IMG/VR virus record: IMGVR_UViG_3300036800_000125
Span: 1 to 60,506 of that record
Origin: a virus
DNA: 60,506 nucleotides
Reading direction: 5' to 3' (one strand)
Part shown: positions 10,833-27,889 of the stretch, piece after piece
Numbering within the stretch: the stretch's first letter is position 1
How the letters are laid out: each line of letters starts with the position of its first letter
The notes under the pieces: model-generated
The model's database searches: none
What the model was told of the DNA's origin: nothing
The model's input: only the letters and a program-made list of their open reading frames with translations
Position numbers and translations under genes: made by a program

Positions 10833-10859
10833 CGGCTACGCGGTTTAGCCGCGTAGCCG
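10833..10859 (-). terminator. Terminator hairpin
   Basis: Perfect 11-base-pair stem (CGGCTACGCGG/CCGCGTAGCCG) with loop TTTAG, 19 bases after the stop of the gene at 10878. It directly precedes the promoter of the next gene, insulating the two units. Confidence 0.7.
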
Positions 10860-11193: not shown

Positions 11194-11227
11194 ATTATAG
11201 CGTAACTGGACCAGTAGCGCTACCCCC
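11194..11227 (-). promoter_or_regulatory. Phage promoter, GGGGGTAGC box plus TATAAT
   Basis: Minus strand: GGGGGTAGCGCTAC (11214-11227), 14 bases, perfect TATAAT (11194-11199), about 29 bases before the ATG at 11165. Same layout as 10797-10830. A GTTAC/GTAAC inverted repeat flanks the -10. Confidence 0.65.
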
Positions 11228-11234
11228 TCGGCCC

Positions 11235-11252
11235 CTAGCTTTTTACAGCTAG
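11235..11252 (-). terminator. Short hairpin after gene 11265
   Basis: CTAGCT/AGCTAG stem with a 6-base A/T-containing loop, 13 bases after the stop codon at 11265, placed just before the next promoter box. Weak as a terminator but placed like the others in this gene island. Confidence 0.5.
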
Positions 11253-11264
11253 TGCGGGGGTAAG

Positions 11265-11504
11265 CTACTCGTCGTCGTCGCCGGAGCGGAACGTGGCGGT
11301 GCTAATGTCCTCGTACGGGGAGATCCGGCCGAACCGAGCTCCGTACGTCTGGCCGTTGTCCGTAACCACTTCGGCGTCCTCGCCGAAGGACGTAATCGCT
11401 CGGGTAATCAGGGATCGGAGATCGGCCAGGGTCATCGGGTTGTCGATCTGGTATGCGCCGTAACCGAGGTTGTCCTCGATAGGCAGCACTACACGGTCTG
11501 CCAC
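11265..11504 (-). CDS. Hypothetical acidic protein, 79 residues
   Basis: GTG start at 11504 behind GGAGGTACA. The sequence has a beta pattern (VVTDNGQTYGARFGRISPYEDIS) and an acidic tail DDDE. It follows the 97-residue gene by 10 bases. No family recognised. Confidence 0.68.
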   Translation of the reverse strand: MADRVVLPIEDNLGYGAYQIDNPMTLADLRSLITRAITSFGEDAEVVTDNGQTYGARFGRISPYEDISTATFRSGDDDE

Positions 11505-11849: not shown

Positions 11850-11876
11850 GACCGAGTGGTACGTGGCCACTCGGTC
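11850..11876 (-). terminator. Terminator hairpin after gene 11889
   Basis: Perfect 10-base-pair stem (GACCGAGTGG/CCACTCGGTC), 7-base loop, starting 12 bases past the TAG stop. An outer TAGCC...GGGCTA pairing is possible, giving the same nested design as the four elements at 14291-17801. Confidence 0.7.
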
Positions 11877-13878: not shown

Positions 13879-14055
13879 CCGAAATTCTAAACTACTCCAA
13901 ATTCCCACCGTTTACTGCCTTTTCACCATAAGTTACTGGTGAGTACGGTTTCCATATGGAACGGTACTCAGTACCCTTCCATATGGCGTTCGAATGGCCG
14001 TAGCGTGGAGTAAATCGGCCCTAGTGATACCACTATTCGGCCGTATCCAGCCACT

Positions 14056-14092
14056 AAAAACGACCCCACCCCGAAGGGCAGGGCCGTCTTTC
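14056..14092 (-). terminator. Rho-independent terminator
   Basis: GC stem interrupted by small bulges (CCC, CCC pairing with GGG, GGG around a CGAA loop) flanked by A5 on one side and T3 on the other. Placed about 45 bases after the stop of the 39-residue gene at 14137. Confidence 0.65.
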
Positions 14093-14136: not shown

Positions 14137-14256
14137 CTAGAACTCCTCTCTGGACGTGCGAATCTGGAGGACGAGGCACCAGTAGGCGAGGGATGCGTTG
14201 AACAGCATCTTGGCTGCACGCGTGTAGTAATACAGCGTGGCTTCGTAGATGGTCAT
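14137..14256 (-). CDS. 39-residue microprotein
   Basis: ATG at 14256 behind GGAGGCTCA. The sequence is MTIYEATLYYYTRAAKMLFN followed by 19 more residues with an apolar helix and a basic end; a peripheral or single-span membrane protein is possible. It is a one-gene unit between a structured element (14291-14349) and a terminator. Confidence 0.6.
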   Translation of the reverse strand: MTIYEATLYYYTRAAKMLFNASLAYWCLVLQIRTSREEF

Positions 14257-14290
14257 TGAGCCTCCATGAGGCTAGGTGTGGATTCGTGGG

Positions 14291-14349
14291 GCTAGGTTGC
14301 CCGGCCAGCCCTGGAACGATACTGAGTACCGTTCCAGGACCAGCCTAGC
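14291..14349 (-). ncRNA. Nested intergenic hairpin element, copy 1
   Basis: Minus strand, beginning 4 bases after a TAG stop: outer stem CTAGG...CCTAG, inner stem CCTGGAACG/CGTTCCAGG (9 pairs) and a conserved right flank CCGGGC then CCTAGCC. Three more copies (16194, 16899, 17756) keep the outer sequence but change the inner stem on both sides. Could be a terminator, processing site or 5' leader structure. Confidence 0.6.
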
Positions 14350-14352
14350 GGA

Positions 14353-14529
14353 CTATCCTTCGTTGGTGACGACGATCAGGATGGAATTGCCGTATCGAGA
14401 CCAGGTTCCTGCATAGCTCAGGCCTCGACTTTTTTCGCAGTCGGCAGTCCAGGTACCATTTTCGTCTGGGAACACTCGGGCGGTGGGGTCCTTGACCTCG
14501 TCCTGAACAGCCTTGATGATGTCTTCCAT
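14353..14529 (-). CDS. Hypothetical protein, 58 residues
   Basis: ATG at 14529, one base after the stop of the upstream gene, so translation is probably coupled. N-terminal helix MEDIIKAVQDEVKD, then a beta region (TWTADCEKSRG, ILIVVTNEG). Its TAG stop is followed at once by structured element copy 1. No family recognised. Confidence 0.65.
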   Translation of the reverse strand: MEDIIKAVQDEVKDPTARVFPDENGTWTADCEKSRGLSYAGTWSRYGNSILIVVTNEG

Positions 14530-14530
14530 C

Positions 14531-14881
14531 TCAGGCCATGTGGATGGTGATCGGGCTCATGTCCTCGGCGCAGTCCTCGGTGCGGATGGCGGCCGCCAGG
14601 GTCTCGAGCGCCAGAGCGACGTCTTCGCGGTCCAGGCCATCGCCTAGTGCGGTCCGCGCCGCCAGTTCCGAGTAGCGCTGGAGCATCAGGAAGGCCTCGC
14701 TGGCCGTTACGGAGGTCGGGCCCTCCATCCGGCCGCCGTGCGTTTCGTACTGGAACGCGCTGTCCTGGTGGGCGTTGTAGGCGTCGGCCGCATTGGTGTT
14801 GTCGTACGGGCCAAGACCGAGCTCCTGGTTCATGCGCTCGCCATCGGCCTCGTAGTCGGATTGGTCAAGGTCTTTGGGCAT
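14531..14881 (-). CDS. Hypothetical acidic protein, 116 residues
   Basis: ATG behind AAGGAGTAGCG. Disordered, Asp/Asn-rich first half, then a helical segment (ASEAFLMLQRYSELAARTALGD). Followed by a coupled 58-residue gene. No family recognised. Confidence 0.68.
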   Translation of the reverse strand: MPKDLDQSDYEADGERMNQELGLGPYDNTNAADAYNAHQDSAFQYETHGGRMEGPTSVTASEAFLMLQRYSELAARTALGDGLDREDVALALETLAAAIRTEDCAEDMSPITIHMA

Positions 14882-14883
14882 CG

Positions 14884-15216
14884 CTACTCCTTGAAGGGTA
14901 CGGACTGGTATGTGACGCCGACGTCTGGGAAGTGCTGGGCGTTGGCTATGCCGCCGACGTCGTCGATGAGCGAGCAGACGGCCATCATGTCATCGCCGAG
15001 GTCGACATCCACGCCGTTGAGCAGGATGCGGCCGGTGTCGTTGAACTCGATGGTGATTGCGCTTCTTCCGTGGTCGCCGTCATCCTCGCAATCGATGGAG
15101 GAGACGTGTTCGCACAGGTAGATCGACTTCACAGTGTCGGCGTTGTGGTAGACCAGCGTTACATCCACTGGTTCTTCCAGCACCCAGGCGGGCAGATGGT
15201 TGATCATTTCGGGCAT
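14884..15216 (-). CDS. Hypothetical protein, 110 residues
   Basis: ATG behind GGAGTAAAAC. Beta-rich and acidic (VDVTLVYHNADTVKSIYL, AITIEFNDTGRILLNGVDVDLG), with two Cys residues. No family recognised. Second gene of a four-gene unit whose promoter lies at 15413. Confidence 0.7.
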   Translation of the reverse strand: MPEMINHLPAWVLEEPVDVTLVYHNADTVKSIYLCEHVSSIDCEDDGDHGRSAITIEFNDTGRILLNGVDVDLGDDMMAVCSLIDDVGGIANAQHFPDVGVTYQSVPFKE

Positions 15217-15219
15217 GTT

Positions 15220-15381
15220 TTACTCCTCCACTACCAGGGTGGGCTCGCCGTTGTGGTCGGTCACATCGAGCACGGTCTCGCAGTAGGGGACGCGCTCGGC
15301 CTTGGCGATGGCCTCATCGACGTCGGCGGCCTCGATGTCGCTGCCGTAGATGCCGTTGATGGTCATGGTTCGGAATTTCAC
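15220..15381 (-). CDS. Hypothetical protein, 53 residues
   Basis: GTG at 15381 behind AAAGGGGCGAGAT; an ATG five codons on lacks an SD. Acidic, alpha/beta (TINGIYGSDIEAADVDEAI). First gene behind the promoter at 15413-15445. Function unknown. Confidence 0.62.
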   Translation of the reverse strand: MKFRTMTINGIYGSDIEAADVDEAIAKAERVPYCETVLDVTDHNGEPTLVVEE

Positions 15382-15412
15382 ATCTCGCCCCTTTCCTTTT
15401 GGTTATAGCTCA

Positions 15413-15445
15413 AGTATAGCGTATACCGGCTGGTAACGCTAGCCC
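15413..15445 (-). promoter_or_regulatory. Phage promoter, GGGCTAGC box plus TATACT
   Basis: Minus strand: GGGCTAGCGTTAC (15433-15445), 14 bases, TATACT (15413-15418), 32 bases before the GTG at 15381. Confidence 0.62.
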
Positions 15446-15446
15446 T

Positions 15447-15475
15447 AGCGTAGAAAATTTGCAACTTTCTACGCT
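15447..15475 (-). terminator. Terminator hairpin
   Basis: Perfect 10-base-pair stem AGCGTAGAAA/TTTCTACGCT with a 9-base loop, 14 bases after the stop of the gene at 15490 and immediately before the next promoter box. Confidence 0.72.
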
Positions 15476-15489
15476 GGGCTACGCGCGGC

Positions 15490-15648
15490 CTAGCTGAAGA
15501 CGAATCCGTAGGCGTCGAAGGTGAGCGTTGCCTGGAACATGGTAAGTTCTTCGTAGGTCCTGCCCCACATGTATATGGACAGGTAATCGATGTTCATCGG
15601 TGCCAGCCCGTCGCGGGCACACCCTGCCTTGTACTCGTCGAGGGTCAT
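15490..15648 (-). CDS. Hypothetical protein, 52 residues
   Basis: ATG at 15648 behind GGGAGGAAGA, overlapping the upstream stop as ATGA; the longer frame is a shadow. Aromatic, alpha/beta (IDYLSIYMWGRTYEELTMF). No family recognised. Confidence 0.65.
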   Translation of the reverse strand: MTLDEYKAGCARDGLAPMNIDYLSIYMWGRTYEELTMFQATLTFDAYGFVFS

Positions 15649-15932
15649 TCTTCCTCCCAGTCGTAGATGCCGAGTGAGGCGATGTGGTCGGTGAGGTACT
15701 GCGGGGCAAGTTGCACCCCGAGTGGTCGCCACTGGAAGGTGAACTTGAGGTGGGCGCAGTTCCGGTGGGCCTTGAGGGTGCGCAGGCCGACGCGGGCGGA
15801 GGGCAGGTCGTAGATCGGACGGCCGCCGTACTCCGTGCCGAAGTACACGACCGGCGTGTGGTTGGATTGCGTGAGCCAGCAGACCCCGGGATTGCGGATC
15901 GCACGCTGGCTGCGTGGCTTGCGGTAGATCAT
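15645..15932 (-). CDS. Hypothetical basic protein, 95 residues
   Basis: ATG overlaps the upstream stop as ATGA with GAGGACG upstream. Basic N-terminus (MIYRKPRSQRAIRNPG) and an acidic end (DWEEE). Three genes (15929, 15645, 15490) form a coupled run. No family recognised. Confidence 0.68.
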   Translation of the reverse strand: MIYRKPRSQRAIRNPGVCWLTQSNHTPVVYFGTEYGGRPIYDLPSARVGLRTLKAHRNCAHLKFTFQWRPLGVQLAPQYLTDHIASLGIYDWEEE

Positions 15933-16177
15933 GGTTGCTCGTCCTCCGGTGGGGTCATGAGCCGGTCAGGCGTGTGCTCGTACACCTCGTCGTCTACCAT
16001 GTTGTAGTAGCCGGTAGCACCTCGGTACCACCAGAGCACGACGGAGCTGTCCTCTGGGTGCTCGTCGATTGTGAGGTCTTCTGGTGTGAAGTCGCGCTGC
16101 CCCGGGCGTCGGAGGTCTTCCTCCAGCGCGTTGGAGATCGCCATCCATGCCTTGAAGCTGCTGGCGTTCGCTTCCAT
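15929..16177 (-). CDS. Hypothetical protein, 82 residues
   Basis: ATG behind AGAGGAGGAGTACC. Residues about 47-68 (VVLWWYRGATG...VYEHT) match the 9575-9763 product, so the two are paralogues. An acidic disordered tail follows. It is led by structured element copy 2. Function unknown. Confidence 0.7.
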   Translation of the reverse strand: MEANASSFKAWMAISNALEEDLRRPGQRDFTPEDLTIDEHPEDSSVVLWWYRGATGYYNMVDDEVYEHTPDRLMTPPEDEQP

Positions 16178-16193
16178 GGTACTCCTCCTCTTT

Positions 16194-16243
16194 GGGCTAG
16201 GCAGCCCGGCCGGAGCTCCGTGGCAGCGGAGCGCCAGCCTAGT
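16194..16243 (-). ncRNA. Nested intergenic hairpin element, copy 2
   Basis: Minus strand, beginning 4 bases after a TAG stop: outer CTAGGC...GCCTAG, inner CTCCG/CGGAG with a 6-base loop, conserved CCGGGC before the right outer arm, then the SD of the next gene about 15 bases on. Confidence 0.6.
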
Positions 16244-16246
16244 GGC

Positions 16247-16507
16247 CTAGCGGATGAGGCTGGTGGCGGGGCACCAGTAGGTGCCATCCTTCTTGGCCTT
16301 GACGGTGCAGAAGATGGATCCGTCGAAACTGCCGTACATGATCCACTTGCCGACACCGAACTGCGGTTCTTCGTAGATGTTGTTGTCGTCGTCCTTGATG
16401 TAGTACTCTGCGTTGGCCGGGTCGGCGTAGGCCGGGTCAACCGTGGCCCACCGGCGACGGAAGTGGTCAGCGGCGGCCGCACGGGCGGTGGGGAAGTTCG
16501 TTTCCAT
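16247..16507 (-). CDS. Hypothetical protein, 86 residues
   Basis: ATG at 16507. Helical N-terminus (ARAAAADHFRRRW), then beta strands rich in Tyr, Trp and Gly with two Cys (SIFCTVKAKKDGTYWCP). The leader GGAGGTAGAATAAGGCTATG is almost identical to that of the 16945-17343 gene. No family recognised. Confidence 0.7.
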   Translation of the reverse strand: METNFPTARAAAADHFRRRWATVDPAYADPANAEYYIKDDDNNIYEEPQFGVGKWIMYGSFDGSIFCTVKAKKDGTYWCPATSLIR

Positions 16508-16513
16508 AGCCTT

Positions 16514-16548
16514 ATTCTACCTCCATGCTGACTAGTAAGGCTAGCCCC
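16514..16548 (-). promoter_or_regulatory. Phage promoter very close to the start codon
   Basis: Minus strand: GGGGCTAGCCTTAC (16535-16548), 15 bases, TAGAAT (16514-16519), only 6 bases before the ATG at 16507. If this is the -10 the mRNA would be leaderless; otherwise the GGAGG inside the promoter is a distant SD. Confidence 0.55.
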
Positions 16549-16580
16549 TAGCCGGAAAATTTTCTGCAATTCTCCGGCTA
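16549..16580 (-). terminator. Terminator hairpin
   Basis: TAGCCGGA/TCCGGCTA stem (8 pairs) with a 16-base A/T-rich loop, 14 bases after the stop of the 22-residue gene and adjoining the next promoter box. Confidence 0.62.
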
Positions 16581-16593
16581 CGGGCGAACCCGG

Positions 16594-16662
16594 CTAGCGA
16601 CGAGGTGTTGCGAAGAATGCGGTGAACAGGATGATGACGCCGATCAGGGCAAGGCCGAACAT
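16594..16662 (-). CDS. 22-residue single-span membrane microprotein
   Basis: ATG at 16662, four bases after the stop of the upstream gene, with GGAG about 10 bases upstream. The product (MFGLALIGVIILFTAFFATP then RR) is one hydrophobic helix with a basic end, the positive-inside pattern. Too short for family assignment; coupling and hydrophobicity support it. Confidence 0.5.
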   Translation of the reverse strand: MFGLALIGVIILFTAFFATPRR

Positions 16663-16666
16663 GCGG

Positions 16667-16867
16667 CTAGGCTCCGATGGGCTGGGCGTCTTGCAGGAAG
16701 CGGGCCCAGCCACCGGCGTAGTGGCGGCTGATGCCCCGGATGACTTGCTCGTCGGTCAGGGAGCCGAGGCTGCCCTCACCCCAGGAGCAGTCGGCGATCC
16801 AGTCGCGCGCGGCCTTGATGTCAGCCGGGGTGAGGGTTGACGTTGTTAGCGGGTAGCGCTTGGCCAT
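16667..16867 (-). CDS. Hypothetical protein, 66 residues
   Basis: ATG behind GGAGGCTTACC. Helical, with LTPADIKAARDWIADCSW and TDEQVIRGISRHY, looking like a small helix bundle. Led by structured element copy 3 and followed by the membrane microprotein. No family recognised. Confidence 0.68.
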   Translation of the reverse strand: MAKRYPLTTSTLTPADIKAARDWIADCSWGEGSLGSLTDEQVIRGISRHYAGGWARFLQDAQPIGA

Positions 16868-16898
16868 GGTAAGCCTCCGTGAGGCTGGTAGGGAGCTG

Positions 16899-16941
16899 GG
16901 CTAGGTCGCCCGGGCAGTGCCCCGTAGGGCACCACCCTAGC
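16899..16941 (-). ncRNA. Nested intergenic hairpin element, copy 3
   Basis: Minus strand, 4 bases after a TAG stop: outer GCTAGG...CCTAGC, inner GTGCCC/GGGCAC (6 pairs, loop TACG), conserved CCCGGGCGACCTAGCCC right side. Nearly the same outer sequence as copy 4, different inner stem. Confidence 0.65.
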
Positions 16942-16944
16942 GCG

Positions 16945-17343
16945 CTAGAGCTCCTGGCGGGGCACATCCCGCCCGCAGTGGTAGCAGTGCTCACTTGCGT
17001 TATCCGGGTTAGCGAACACCCCGGGATGGATACAGTCGCGCGTCACGGATTCGCCGTAGTTCAGGTTCAGGGTTGCGGCCTCGTCAGCCGCCCCCAGCAC
17101 GACGGGCAGGTCATCGCCGAAGTCACGGATCAGATCAGAGCAGCCGCCCCACTCAGCCCAGACCACGGCGAGCGGGCGGAGGTCGTCAAAGACGAGCAGG
17201 ACGGCCGGGAACAGGCCGACCGTACCGGCGGGCTGGTAGGTAAAGCCGCCGGGGGAGATGGTACCGCGCGTTATCGTCACGGGCGAGCCGTCACGGAACC
17301 AAAGCGGCAGTTCAGCCGGGGGAACCGGCAGGTTTTCATTCAT
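16945..17343 (-). CDS. Hypothetical protein with C-terminal zinc-ribbon
   Basis: 132 residues. The first 95 residues are beta-rich and apolar (GLFPAVLLVFDDLRPLAVVW). The end has CIHP about 20 residues before HCYHCG, a C/H-CxxC zinc site. ATG at 17343 with the same promoter and leader as the 16247 gene. No family recognised. Confidence 0.7.
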   Translation of the reverse strand: MNENLPVPPAELPLWFRDGSPVTITRGTISPGGFTYQPAGTVGLFPAVLLVFDDLRPLAVVWAEWGGCSDLIRDFGDDLPVVLGAADEAATLNLNYGESVTRDCIHPGVFANPDNASEHCYHCGRDVPRQEL

Positions 17344-17349
17344 AGCCTT

Positions 17350-17383
17350 ATCGTACCTCCTATTGGCTAGTAAGGCTACCCCC
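17350..17383 (-). promoter_or_regulatory. Phage promoter very close to the start codon
   Basis: Minus strand: GGGGGTAGCCTTAC (17370-17383), 14 bases, TACGAT (17350-17355), 6 bases before the ATG at 17343. Same geometry as 16514-16548. Confidence 0.52.
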
Positions 17384-17387
17384 TAGA

Positions 17388-17408
17388 CTGGTAACGTTGC
17401 GTTACCAG
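17388..17408 (-). terminator. Terminator hairpin
   Basis: Perfect 9-base-pair stem CTGGTAACG/CGTTACCAG with a 3-base loop, 17 bases after the stop of the gene at 17425 and just before the next promoter box. Confidence 0.65.
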
Positions 17409-17424
17409 CCCGAGGGAAGCACGG

Positions 17425-17733
17425 CTAGCGCCAGTCAGAGCGGTCAGGAACGGGCAGGTCAGCGGTAGGCCAGCCGAGCGCGGGGGAGGACAGGTGGTGA
17501 AGCTGGTTCGAGATGAGCTTGGCGACTTCGGCCTGAAGCTCAGCGGGCACCAGTTCGGTGACCAGGGTACCGGCGGCCAGGATGATCGCCAGGTCGACGT
17601 CACGCCGCCAGTCGGTCGCCGTACGCGGCTTGACCGTTACGGTCCGCGCGGGGTGAGCCTTGGCGAAGGCCTGCGGGTCCCGCTGCGCCAGTTCGAAGGC
17701 GGACCGGAGCGCGAGGAGCGATGAAGTTGTCAT
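17425..17733 (-). CDS. Hypothetical helical protein, 102 residues
   Basis: ATG with AAAGG about 8 bases upstream. Mostly helical with an apolar stretch (LAIILAAGTLVTELVPAEL). It ends LPVPDRSDWR, the same motif as RPDRSDWR in the 11889-12677 product, perhaps a docking tail. Led by structured element copy 4. No family recognised. Confidence 0.68.
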   Translation of the reverse strand: MTTSSLLALRSAFELAQRDPQAFAKAHPARTVTVKPRTATDWRRDVDLAIILAAGTLVTELVPAELQAEVAKLISNQLHHLSSPALGWPTADLPVPDRSDWR

Positions 17734-17755
17734 GGTAGTGCCTTTCTCGGTTTTG

Positions 17756-17801
17756 GGCTAGGTCGCCCGGGCGGTACCCCCGGAGGGGGTATCACCCTAG
17801 C
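17756..17801 (-). ncRNA. Nested intergenic hairpin element, copy 4
   Basis: Minus strand, 4 bases after a TAG stop: outer GCTAGG...CCTAGC, inner TACCCCC/GGGGGTA (7 pairs, loop TCC), conserved CCCGGGCGACCTAGCCC right side. The inner stem shares no sequence with copies 1-3. Confidence 0.65.
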
Positions 17802-17804
17802 GCG

Positions 17805-18095: not shown

Positions 18096-18405
18096 TTTTT
18101 ACCCCTACCCCTTACGTACGCGGGCCCTAGCGGGCCCTACCCGCGCGGTACGCGGGCCCGGGGGCCCCGCCCGCTACCTTTTTAGCTATTACCTAAAGGT
18201 TACCCCCTACCTAGGCAAAAAGCTACCTTTTGCGGTAACGAAATGGTAACGTTAGCTAGTACCTTAGGACCTACCCCCTACCGGGCCCTACCCCGAAATT
18301 GCCCCTACCCGGCCTGGAGCGGGCCCCTAAGTGGACTTCTACCTACCCCCGTCCTACCCGCCCGGTCGGCGTCCCGGGCCCGTAAAATGCCATCGTTCGG
18401 TCCTT

Positions 18406-18511
18406 CGTACGACCTAACGACTGGAATTCGTACGGTCGTACGTATGACCTGGACCGGTCGTACGGTCGTTCGTATCATTCGAGTTAGAACCGCCGGTCGT
18501 TCGGTCGTTCG
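18406..18511. repeat. GGTCGTWCG repeat cluster
   Basis: Direct copies at 18434, 18456, 18464, 18495 and 18503 and one inverted copy at 18406-18414. Some units overlap by one base to make GGTCGTACGGTCGTTCG. The density and mixed orientation are typical of a multi-site operator. Confidence 0.65.
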
Positions 18512-18579
18512 TACGTTCAGTCCCGCAAGTTGGCGAAAAATCTGAACAGTCATGGTTATACCCTGGAATAGTTCGAAAA

Positions 18580-27575: not shown

Positions 27576-27889
27576 TGGCAGACAAAGAGAGCATCGAAGA
27601 GTTCGCCAAGAAGATCGGCGAAGCGGCTCAGAGCGAGATCAAGACGGGCGTCGTCCGTCCGGGCGATACCATCATCGTTGGGTTCAGTCGGCGGATCAGC
27701 GAGCAAGAGAATCACGAGATTCAGGACCGTCTGCATTTCTTTCTTCCGGATGTTCGTCTCGTGGTATTCCCCGAGGTCGAGGGGATCCGGGTCTACCGGC
27801 CGGACGGGGAAGGCATGTTATGTCTGTTATTGGGGAAAGCAGAAGCAGGCATGTTGTCCAGGTGGAAACTGAATATGCCGGTTTCGTAG
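27575..27889 (+). CDS. Hypothetical protein, 104 residues, tandem paralogue A
   Basis: ATG overlaps the upstream stop as TAATG. Residues about 26-80 (VVRPGDTIIVGFSRRISEQENHEI...VRLVVFPEV...IRVYRPDG) match the next gene's product. The last 24 residues are read in a frame that overlaps the start of that gene by 70 bases. No family recognised. Confidence 0.68.
   Translation: MADKESIEEFAKKIGEAAQSEIKTGVVRPGDTIIVGFSRRISEQENHEIQDRLHFFLPDVRLVVFPEVEGIRVYRPDGEGMLCLLLGKAEAGMLSRWKLNMPVS

Follow-up and report, generated by a model that had tools for sequence, protein, structure and literature searches.

We analysed a 60.5-kb viral DNA record, IMGVR_UViG_3300036800_000125 (this whole stretch is called the window below), and found that a leftward operon of small orphan genes carries a repeated intergenic element whose supported, predicted fold is two abutting hairpins, hairpin 1 (HP1) and hairpin 2 (HP2). 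The element lies in the sense transcript, at gene boundaries without translational coupling, in accessory operons of two related actinomycete phages. The pairing of HP1 is conserved while its sequence changes, and it is very likely that the structure of the sense RNA has been under selection. Our best overall interpretation, to which we give slightly less than an even chance, is that of a post-transcriptional cistron-boundary element (one that stabilises the mRNA or insulates translation), which travels together with gene cassettes as these are shuffled.

Copies of the element in two phages

Judged by its sequence, the source virus, which comes from soil, is an actinomycete phage: the DnaE-like polymerase that it encodes shares 48% identity with those of cluster D mycobacteriophages, and relatives of its terminase were found in Streptomyces, Amycolatopsis, Lentzea and Nonomuraea contigs. 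The four window copies (A to D) all lie on the minus strand, where a preliminary description had placed them, in the sense of the operon running from 18.1 to 14.06 kb. Copy D (17755..17802), between genes 18095-17805 and 17733-17425, has HP1 GGGUGAUACCCCC-UCC-GGGGGUACCGCCC and HP2 GGGC-GACCUA-GCCC. Copy C (16898..16942), between genes 17343-16945 and 16867-16667, has HP1 GGGUGGUGCCC-UACG-GGGCACUGCCC and HP2 GGGC-GACCUA-GCCC. Copy B (16194..16245), between genes 16507-16247 and 16177-15929, has HP1 GGCUGGCGCUCCG-loop-CGGAGCUCCGGCC, with a C.U mismatch at pair 7, and HP2 GGGC-UGCCUA-GCCC. Copy A (14289..14350), which precedes the microprotein gene 14256-14137, has a 20-bp HP1, GGCUGGUCCUGGAACGGUAC-UCA-GUAUCGUUCCAGGGCUGGCC, and HP2 GGGC-AACCUA-GCCC. 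Each sits between a TAG stop and the Shine-Dalgarno sequence and ATG of the next gene. The flank pattern GGGCTAGGN{25,55}CCTAGCG gave four matches in the window, exactly copies A-D, with 0.00 expected from dinucleotide shuffles. Downstream of copies A and C (14256-14278 and 16867-16890, minus strand), the Shine-Dalgarno sequence lies inside a near-identical small hairpin, GCCUCAYGGAGGC.

The preliminary description had proposed a covariance model as a check. Our first alignment, which included copy A, misplaced the long tip of that copy, and copies B, C and D alone were used for the model. This model recovered the held-out copy A with a score of 45.4 bits (E=2.9e-8) and found no further copy in the window genome. 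Model search of the terminase relatives gave three significant matches in one of them, IMGVR_UViG_3300025912_000033 (hereafter G009). The corresponding operon of G009, about 9 kb upstream of its terminase, contains five copies (g1-g5); a sixth, g6, lies elsewhere, at 27,830-27,880, and scored 35.5 bits with a second model. Copies outside the training sets were thus recovered for A (45 and 36 bits), g6 (35.5) and g1 (25.7). G009 copies have the form UAGGCUGGU-stem-GCCGGCC, followed mostly by GGCC-GACCA-GGCC as HP2. All ten copies point the same way and lie between the stop of one gene and the start of the next. The spacing of four bases from the TAG stop to CTAGG, part of the preliminary description, holds in 4/4 window copies but is not kept in G009 (about 4-10 nt); it is local to the window phage. 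Copy A and g6 look orthologous, because the gene that follows each encodes a microprotein with the N-terminus M(L)TIYE; by eye, their upper stems share nothing.

We next give the reach of the searches. Across IMG/VR, the exact flank pattern occurred in 19 stretches, none with the inner helix. The flanks plus HP2 were matched 86 times in viral contigs (true copies counted); chance stems had 6-12 pairs, mostly 6-9, and true copies 14-15; the chance matches lack the helix. Copy g1, which was found separately, has a 13-pair stem, and the G009 copies span 13-15. A scan of IMG/VR with the best conserved operon gene returned G009 alone, and a 343-aa orphan used as query gave no match. Neither the DNA nor the proteins of the region matched named phages, and the sequences of the polymerase relatives do not reach this region. 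L034 and L035 share 30 residues with gene 17343-16945 and have no element there. A further 24 relatives by terminase or polymerase, and 15 cellular contigs with a terminase, showed no convincing element; many of these sequences are fragments, and the whole-genome model search was weak, with only 150 candidates scored per genome. The element pattern was absent from 397 actinomycete genomes, and no Rfam 15 family reached its gathering threshold, the only matches being chance ones to miRNA families far below thresholds. CTAG over-representation was considered and rejected, as observed and expected counts were equal.

Fold and selection on the sense RNA

In minimum-energy folds, HP1 has the base GG[C/G]UGG / CCG[G/C]CC and an upper stem that differs in each copy, and the window HP2 is an adjoining 4-bp hairpin, GGGC-6 nt-GCCC. 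All the inner stems originally listed (CCTGGAACG, CTCCG, GTGCCC and TACCCCC) are completely paired and form part of longer helices, of 20 bp in copy A, 11 bp in C, and 12 pairs with a single mismatch in both B and D. Folding z-scores for the four window copies were -7.3, -3.2, -3.2 and -3.1. The stem tip of copy A (14312-14336) has a perfect 17-nt stretch, TACTGAGTACCGTTCCA, in common with a long intergenic palindrome (13952-13986), which suggests that the tip was copied or template-switched.

The preliminary description had drawn the CTAGG and CCTAG arms as an outer stem. A nested element of this kind would be a single long hairpin whose internal loop is asymmetric, and it might be an alternative state adopted with a ribosome at the stop. 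The arms are indeed invariant in the window copies, with CTAGG at its exact distance from each TAG. Their pairing, however, is unfavourable and would come at the expense of HP1 and HP2: forcing the stem cost 5.9, 8.3, 6.6 and 6.6 kcal/mol in the four window copies (about 6-8), and the predicted outer-stem pair probability was at most 0.009. Because the arms are invariant in the window, they show no covariation and give no evidence of their own. Their G009 counterparts (GTAGG and CCAGG-type) no longer pair, whereas HP2 is kept; its arms, GGGC/GCCC in the window versus GGCC/GGCC in G009, have changed on both sides of the third pair, a compensatory change. We regard a nested basal stem as exceedingly improbable, and our models support the two abutting hairpins.

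We found that covariation in HP1 is strong. Among seven alignable copies from the two phages, 6/14 pairs had double changes and 97.8% of cells were paired; this level was reached in 0/500 shuffles, and slid controls gave at most one double-change pair. The central claim of the preliminary description, that pairing is conserved while sequence changes, therefore holds with the copies of the relative included. That description had left the choice between RNA and a DNA cruciform open, and two results favour RNA. First, the HP1 arms of the ten copies contained 118 Watson-Crick pairs, 20 G.U, 2 A.C and one other juxtaposition, with U.G at pair 4 in 10/10 copies and at pair 7 in 6/10. No such preference for G.U over A.C in the sense strand would be expected of a DNA palindrome or of the antisense RNA. 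Second, the sense strand folded better than the antisense strand in 11/13 elements (Wilcoxon p=0.002). Each HP1 5' arm also paired best with its own 3' arm in 9/10 copies, the exception being C, which paired with D within 1 kcal/mol. This own-arm preference arises because the upper stems differ enough between copies, and a message with many hairpins would require it.

Gene junctions, read-through and gene order

The two operons contain 19 gene junctions. All 12 gaps of at least 69 nt (12/12) hold a hairpin element, nine of them the two-hairpin element (family I) and three a second type (family II; hairpins E, F and G). At the other seven junctions the genes overlap or lie no more than 4 nt apart, and are probably translationally coupled.

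Strong GC-rich hairpins directly after stop codons could be partial or conditional terminators or attenuators, in which hairpins without a U-tract pause or release some polymerases and so grade expression along the operon. Actinobacteria have been proposed to use terminators that lack a U-tract, and by eye we saw a -10-like box after g1 and after E only. Of the features of an intrinsic terminator, the element has the GC-rich hairpin and lacks the U-tract directly after it: none follows any copy, in the window (A-D) or in G009. A promoter scan gave no promoter-like site at the window copies and none behind the G009 copies, the sole predicted promoter of the latter region lying upstream of the operon. 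Both operons, in contrast, end in a hairpin followed by a U-run (window 14,092-14,052; G009 about 31,380), indicating that normal terminators are in use here; the window hairpin (14052..14092, minus strand; minimum free energy -26.7, z -5.6) is likely a real terminator. Furthermore, a simple terminator needs neither a conserved HP2 nor conserved U.G pairs. Since no promoter follows 9/10 copies and the operons end in U-run hairpins, we consider it fairly safe to say that the element is not an efficient terminator, in agreement with the earlier view that it is no ordinary one, and a partial or conditional role in termination appears rather unlikely. The copies are most likely read through, because efficient termination would silence the genes behind them.

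The family II hairpins occupy the remaining long gaps. Hairpin G (17373..17430, minus strand; z -3.8), CUGGUAACG-CAA-CGUUACCAG, lies between genes 17733-17425 and 17343-16945; hairpin F (16538..16599, minus strand; z -5.6), UAGCCGGAGAAUU-loop-AAUUUUCCGGCUA, precedes gene 16507-16247; and the family II-like hairpin E (15435..15495, minus strand; z -5.0), whose -10-like box is TATACT, precedes gene 15381-15220. Along the window operon there is strict alternation between the families, in the order D(I), G(II), C(I), F(II), B(I), E(II), A(I). The two types look interchangeable, because the element bordering a given gene can be type I in one phage and type II in the other. After the hairpin, F and G have GGGGNUAGCCUUACUAG in common. 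At 17343-17396 and 16507-16560 (minus strand), after G and F, a stem made by UAGCCUUA and UAAGGCUA surrounds the Shine-Dalgarno sequence and extends to the start codon; the start-proximal AAGG has a predicted unpaired chance of 0.01-0.04, a possible translational switch.

Other structures were noted nearby. Another leftward operon of the window has further post-stop hairpins at 10833-10859, 11225-11265 and 11850-11876 (minus strand), and the first two are followed by TATAAT/TATACT-like boxes, resembling terminator-promoter units. Upstream of the window operon, at positions 18389-18513, a 21-nt repeat resembling CGTACGGTCGTACGTA occurs in four spaced copies, which could mark an operator or an origin. 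A further hairpin, GCGCUAGG-loop-CCUAGCGC (L067 13903-13935; G009 about 33,930, minus strand), lies immediately before the first gene of the G009 operon.

Gene order differs between the two phages: window genes 18095-17805 and then 17733-17425 correspond to G009 genes 33448-33209 and 33866-33555, in reversed order. We found that the elements stay at boundaries while the homologous genes change places. Such shuffling could point to a DNA-level element, either a cassette boundary or a mobile palindrome (a PeSL-like recombination point or a REP-like repeat), with the hairpin arising from palindrome-templated mutation rather than RNA selection. Copies g1-g5 begin with GTAG before the stem, as REP elements do, and the 17 nt that copy A shares with the palindrome 350 bp away are what template switching might give. 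A DNA-level element, however, is hard to reconcile with a single orientation to transcription in 10/10 copies, with the lack of a Y1 transposase in either phage, for which a REP/RAYT origin was rejected, or with the lack of a pattern match in the 397 actinomycete genomes. Palindrome correction should also erase persistent T.G mismatches. A DNA-level origin accounts for the spread of the element better than for its sequence-changing pairing and may hold in addition; as an explanation in its own right we find it quite improbable.

Candidate roles and known systems

We think that the element probably acts on the mRNA at each gene boundary. That stabilisation or insulation is its specific job is possible, though short of probable. 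In this mechanism, RNA polymerase would read through the element, as the lack of new promoters after 9/10 copies and the U-run terminator at the operon end suggest. HP1 would then form a protective cap at the 3' end of the preceding cistron and stop post-termination ribosomes from running on, and HP2 and the spacer would leave the next cistron its own start region. Each small gene would thereby become an independent, portable unit, and the variable upper stem would keep each hairpin folding on itself rather than pairing with another copy on the same message.

Several points weigh against a stabiliser or insulator. Sequence cannot separate stability or insulation from other roles at the mRNA level, and the -10-like boxes after g1 and E leave room for terminator-promoter units at some junctions. 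The G.U strand bias does not represent 20 independent events, because 16/20 G.U cells fall in two conserved columns, outside which we counted 4 G.U versus 1 A.C. Similarly, with only two phages carrying the element, the ten copies behind the covariation may descend from a recent common ancestor. Finally, the conserved HP1 base and HP2 suggest that some factor recognises them; a simple barrier could do without this.

This last point bears on the proposal that the HP1 base, with its U.G pairs, and HP2 form a binding or processing site, recognised by a phage or host protein that is either a translational regulator or an RNase cutting the polycistronic message. Across the two phages it is the HP1 base (U.G pair 4, 10/10) and the shape of HP2 that are conserved, not the loops or the upper stem, and phage T7 RNase III sites are likewise intercistronic hairpins. 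Against this, we identified no candidate protein, HP1 is only 11-15 bp in most copies, and the likely fold lacks the lower-stem, internal-loop and upper-stem design of the T7 sites, since the outer stem is not supported. We therefore give a binding or processing site a low probability. A broader proposal, which we hold to be doubtful, is a new class of RNA that would mark cistron boundaries in phages. A phage or host factor would read its conserved base (with the invariant U.G) and companion hairpin, the private upper stem of each copy would let many copies share one message, and the element would accompany small genes as a plug-in end of their cassettes.

Small phage accessory genes are gained and shuffled at a high rate, yet need to be expressed in new neighbourhoods. 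If our preferred interpretation as a cistron-boundary stabiliser or insulator is correct, an RNA element that makes each gene independent within one message would explain how dropped-in genes still work. The element is short, with ten natural variants and clear predicted pairs, and is thus directly testable with reporters; it could also serve as an insulator part for actinomycete genetics.

We compared the element with known systems. The put antitermination RNA of phage HK022 occurs once per operon near the promoter and suppresses termination. Like put, the present element consists of two abutting stem-loops in phage RNA; unlike put, its copies stand between cistrons rather than once near a promoter, and it has no Rfam match. 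REP/BIME sequences are intercistronic palindromes found after stops, and some REPs protect mRNA 3' ends. The element shares this position, and 5' of the stem it has GTAG in g1-g5 (5/6 G009 copies), CTAG in the window copies and neither in g6. It differs in its single orientation, in an upper stem that varies from copy to copy, and in the absence of a Y1/RAYT transposase from the two phages. The RNase III sites of phage T7 are intercistronic hairpins, conserved in shape, within one polycistronic early message. Our element resembles them in both respects, whereas its predicted form is two separate hairpins, not a lower and an upper stem with an internal loop.

The nearest described actinophage repeats are the extended forms (ESAS) of the SAS motif in cluster K phages. 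The SAS sequence, GGGATAGGAGCCC, lies within a few nucleotides of starts, and the inverted repeats of the ESAS do not support RNA pairing and contain SigA-like promoters (PMC3203893, PMC11373665). As with SAS/ESAS, we see a repeated intergenic inverted-repeat motif with a variable spacer, upstream of non-structural gene starts and in large gaps, in actinophages; unlike them, the present motif has supported RNA pairing, and a SigA-like promoter was not seen. The SAS motif itself was rejected as an explanation, as GGGATAGGAGCCC had two matches with two mismatches against 2.19 expected, which is no excess.

In evolutionary behaviour, the nearest system appears to be the PeSL elements of T4-type phages, reportedly described by Comeau, Arbiol and Krisch in 2014. 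The present element differs in having no U-tract and a two-hairpin form with a covarying stem. PeSLs are composites of a promoter and a terminator, with the early promoter in the motif, whereas here no promoter follows 9/10 copies and -10-like boxes were seen, by eye, only at g1 and E. Like PeSLs, it is a short intergenic stem-loop motif between small accessory genes that are shuffled between related phages.

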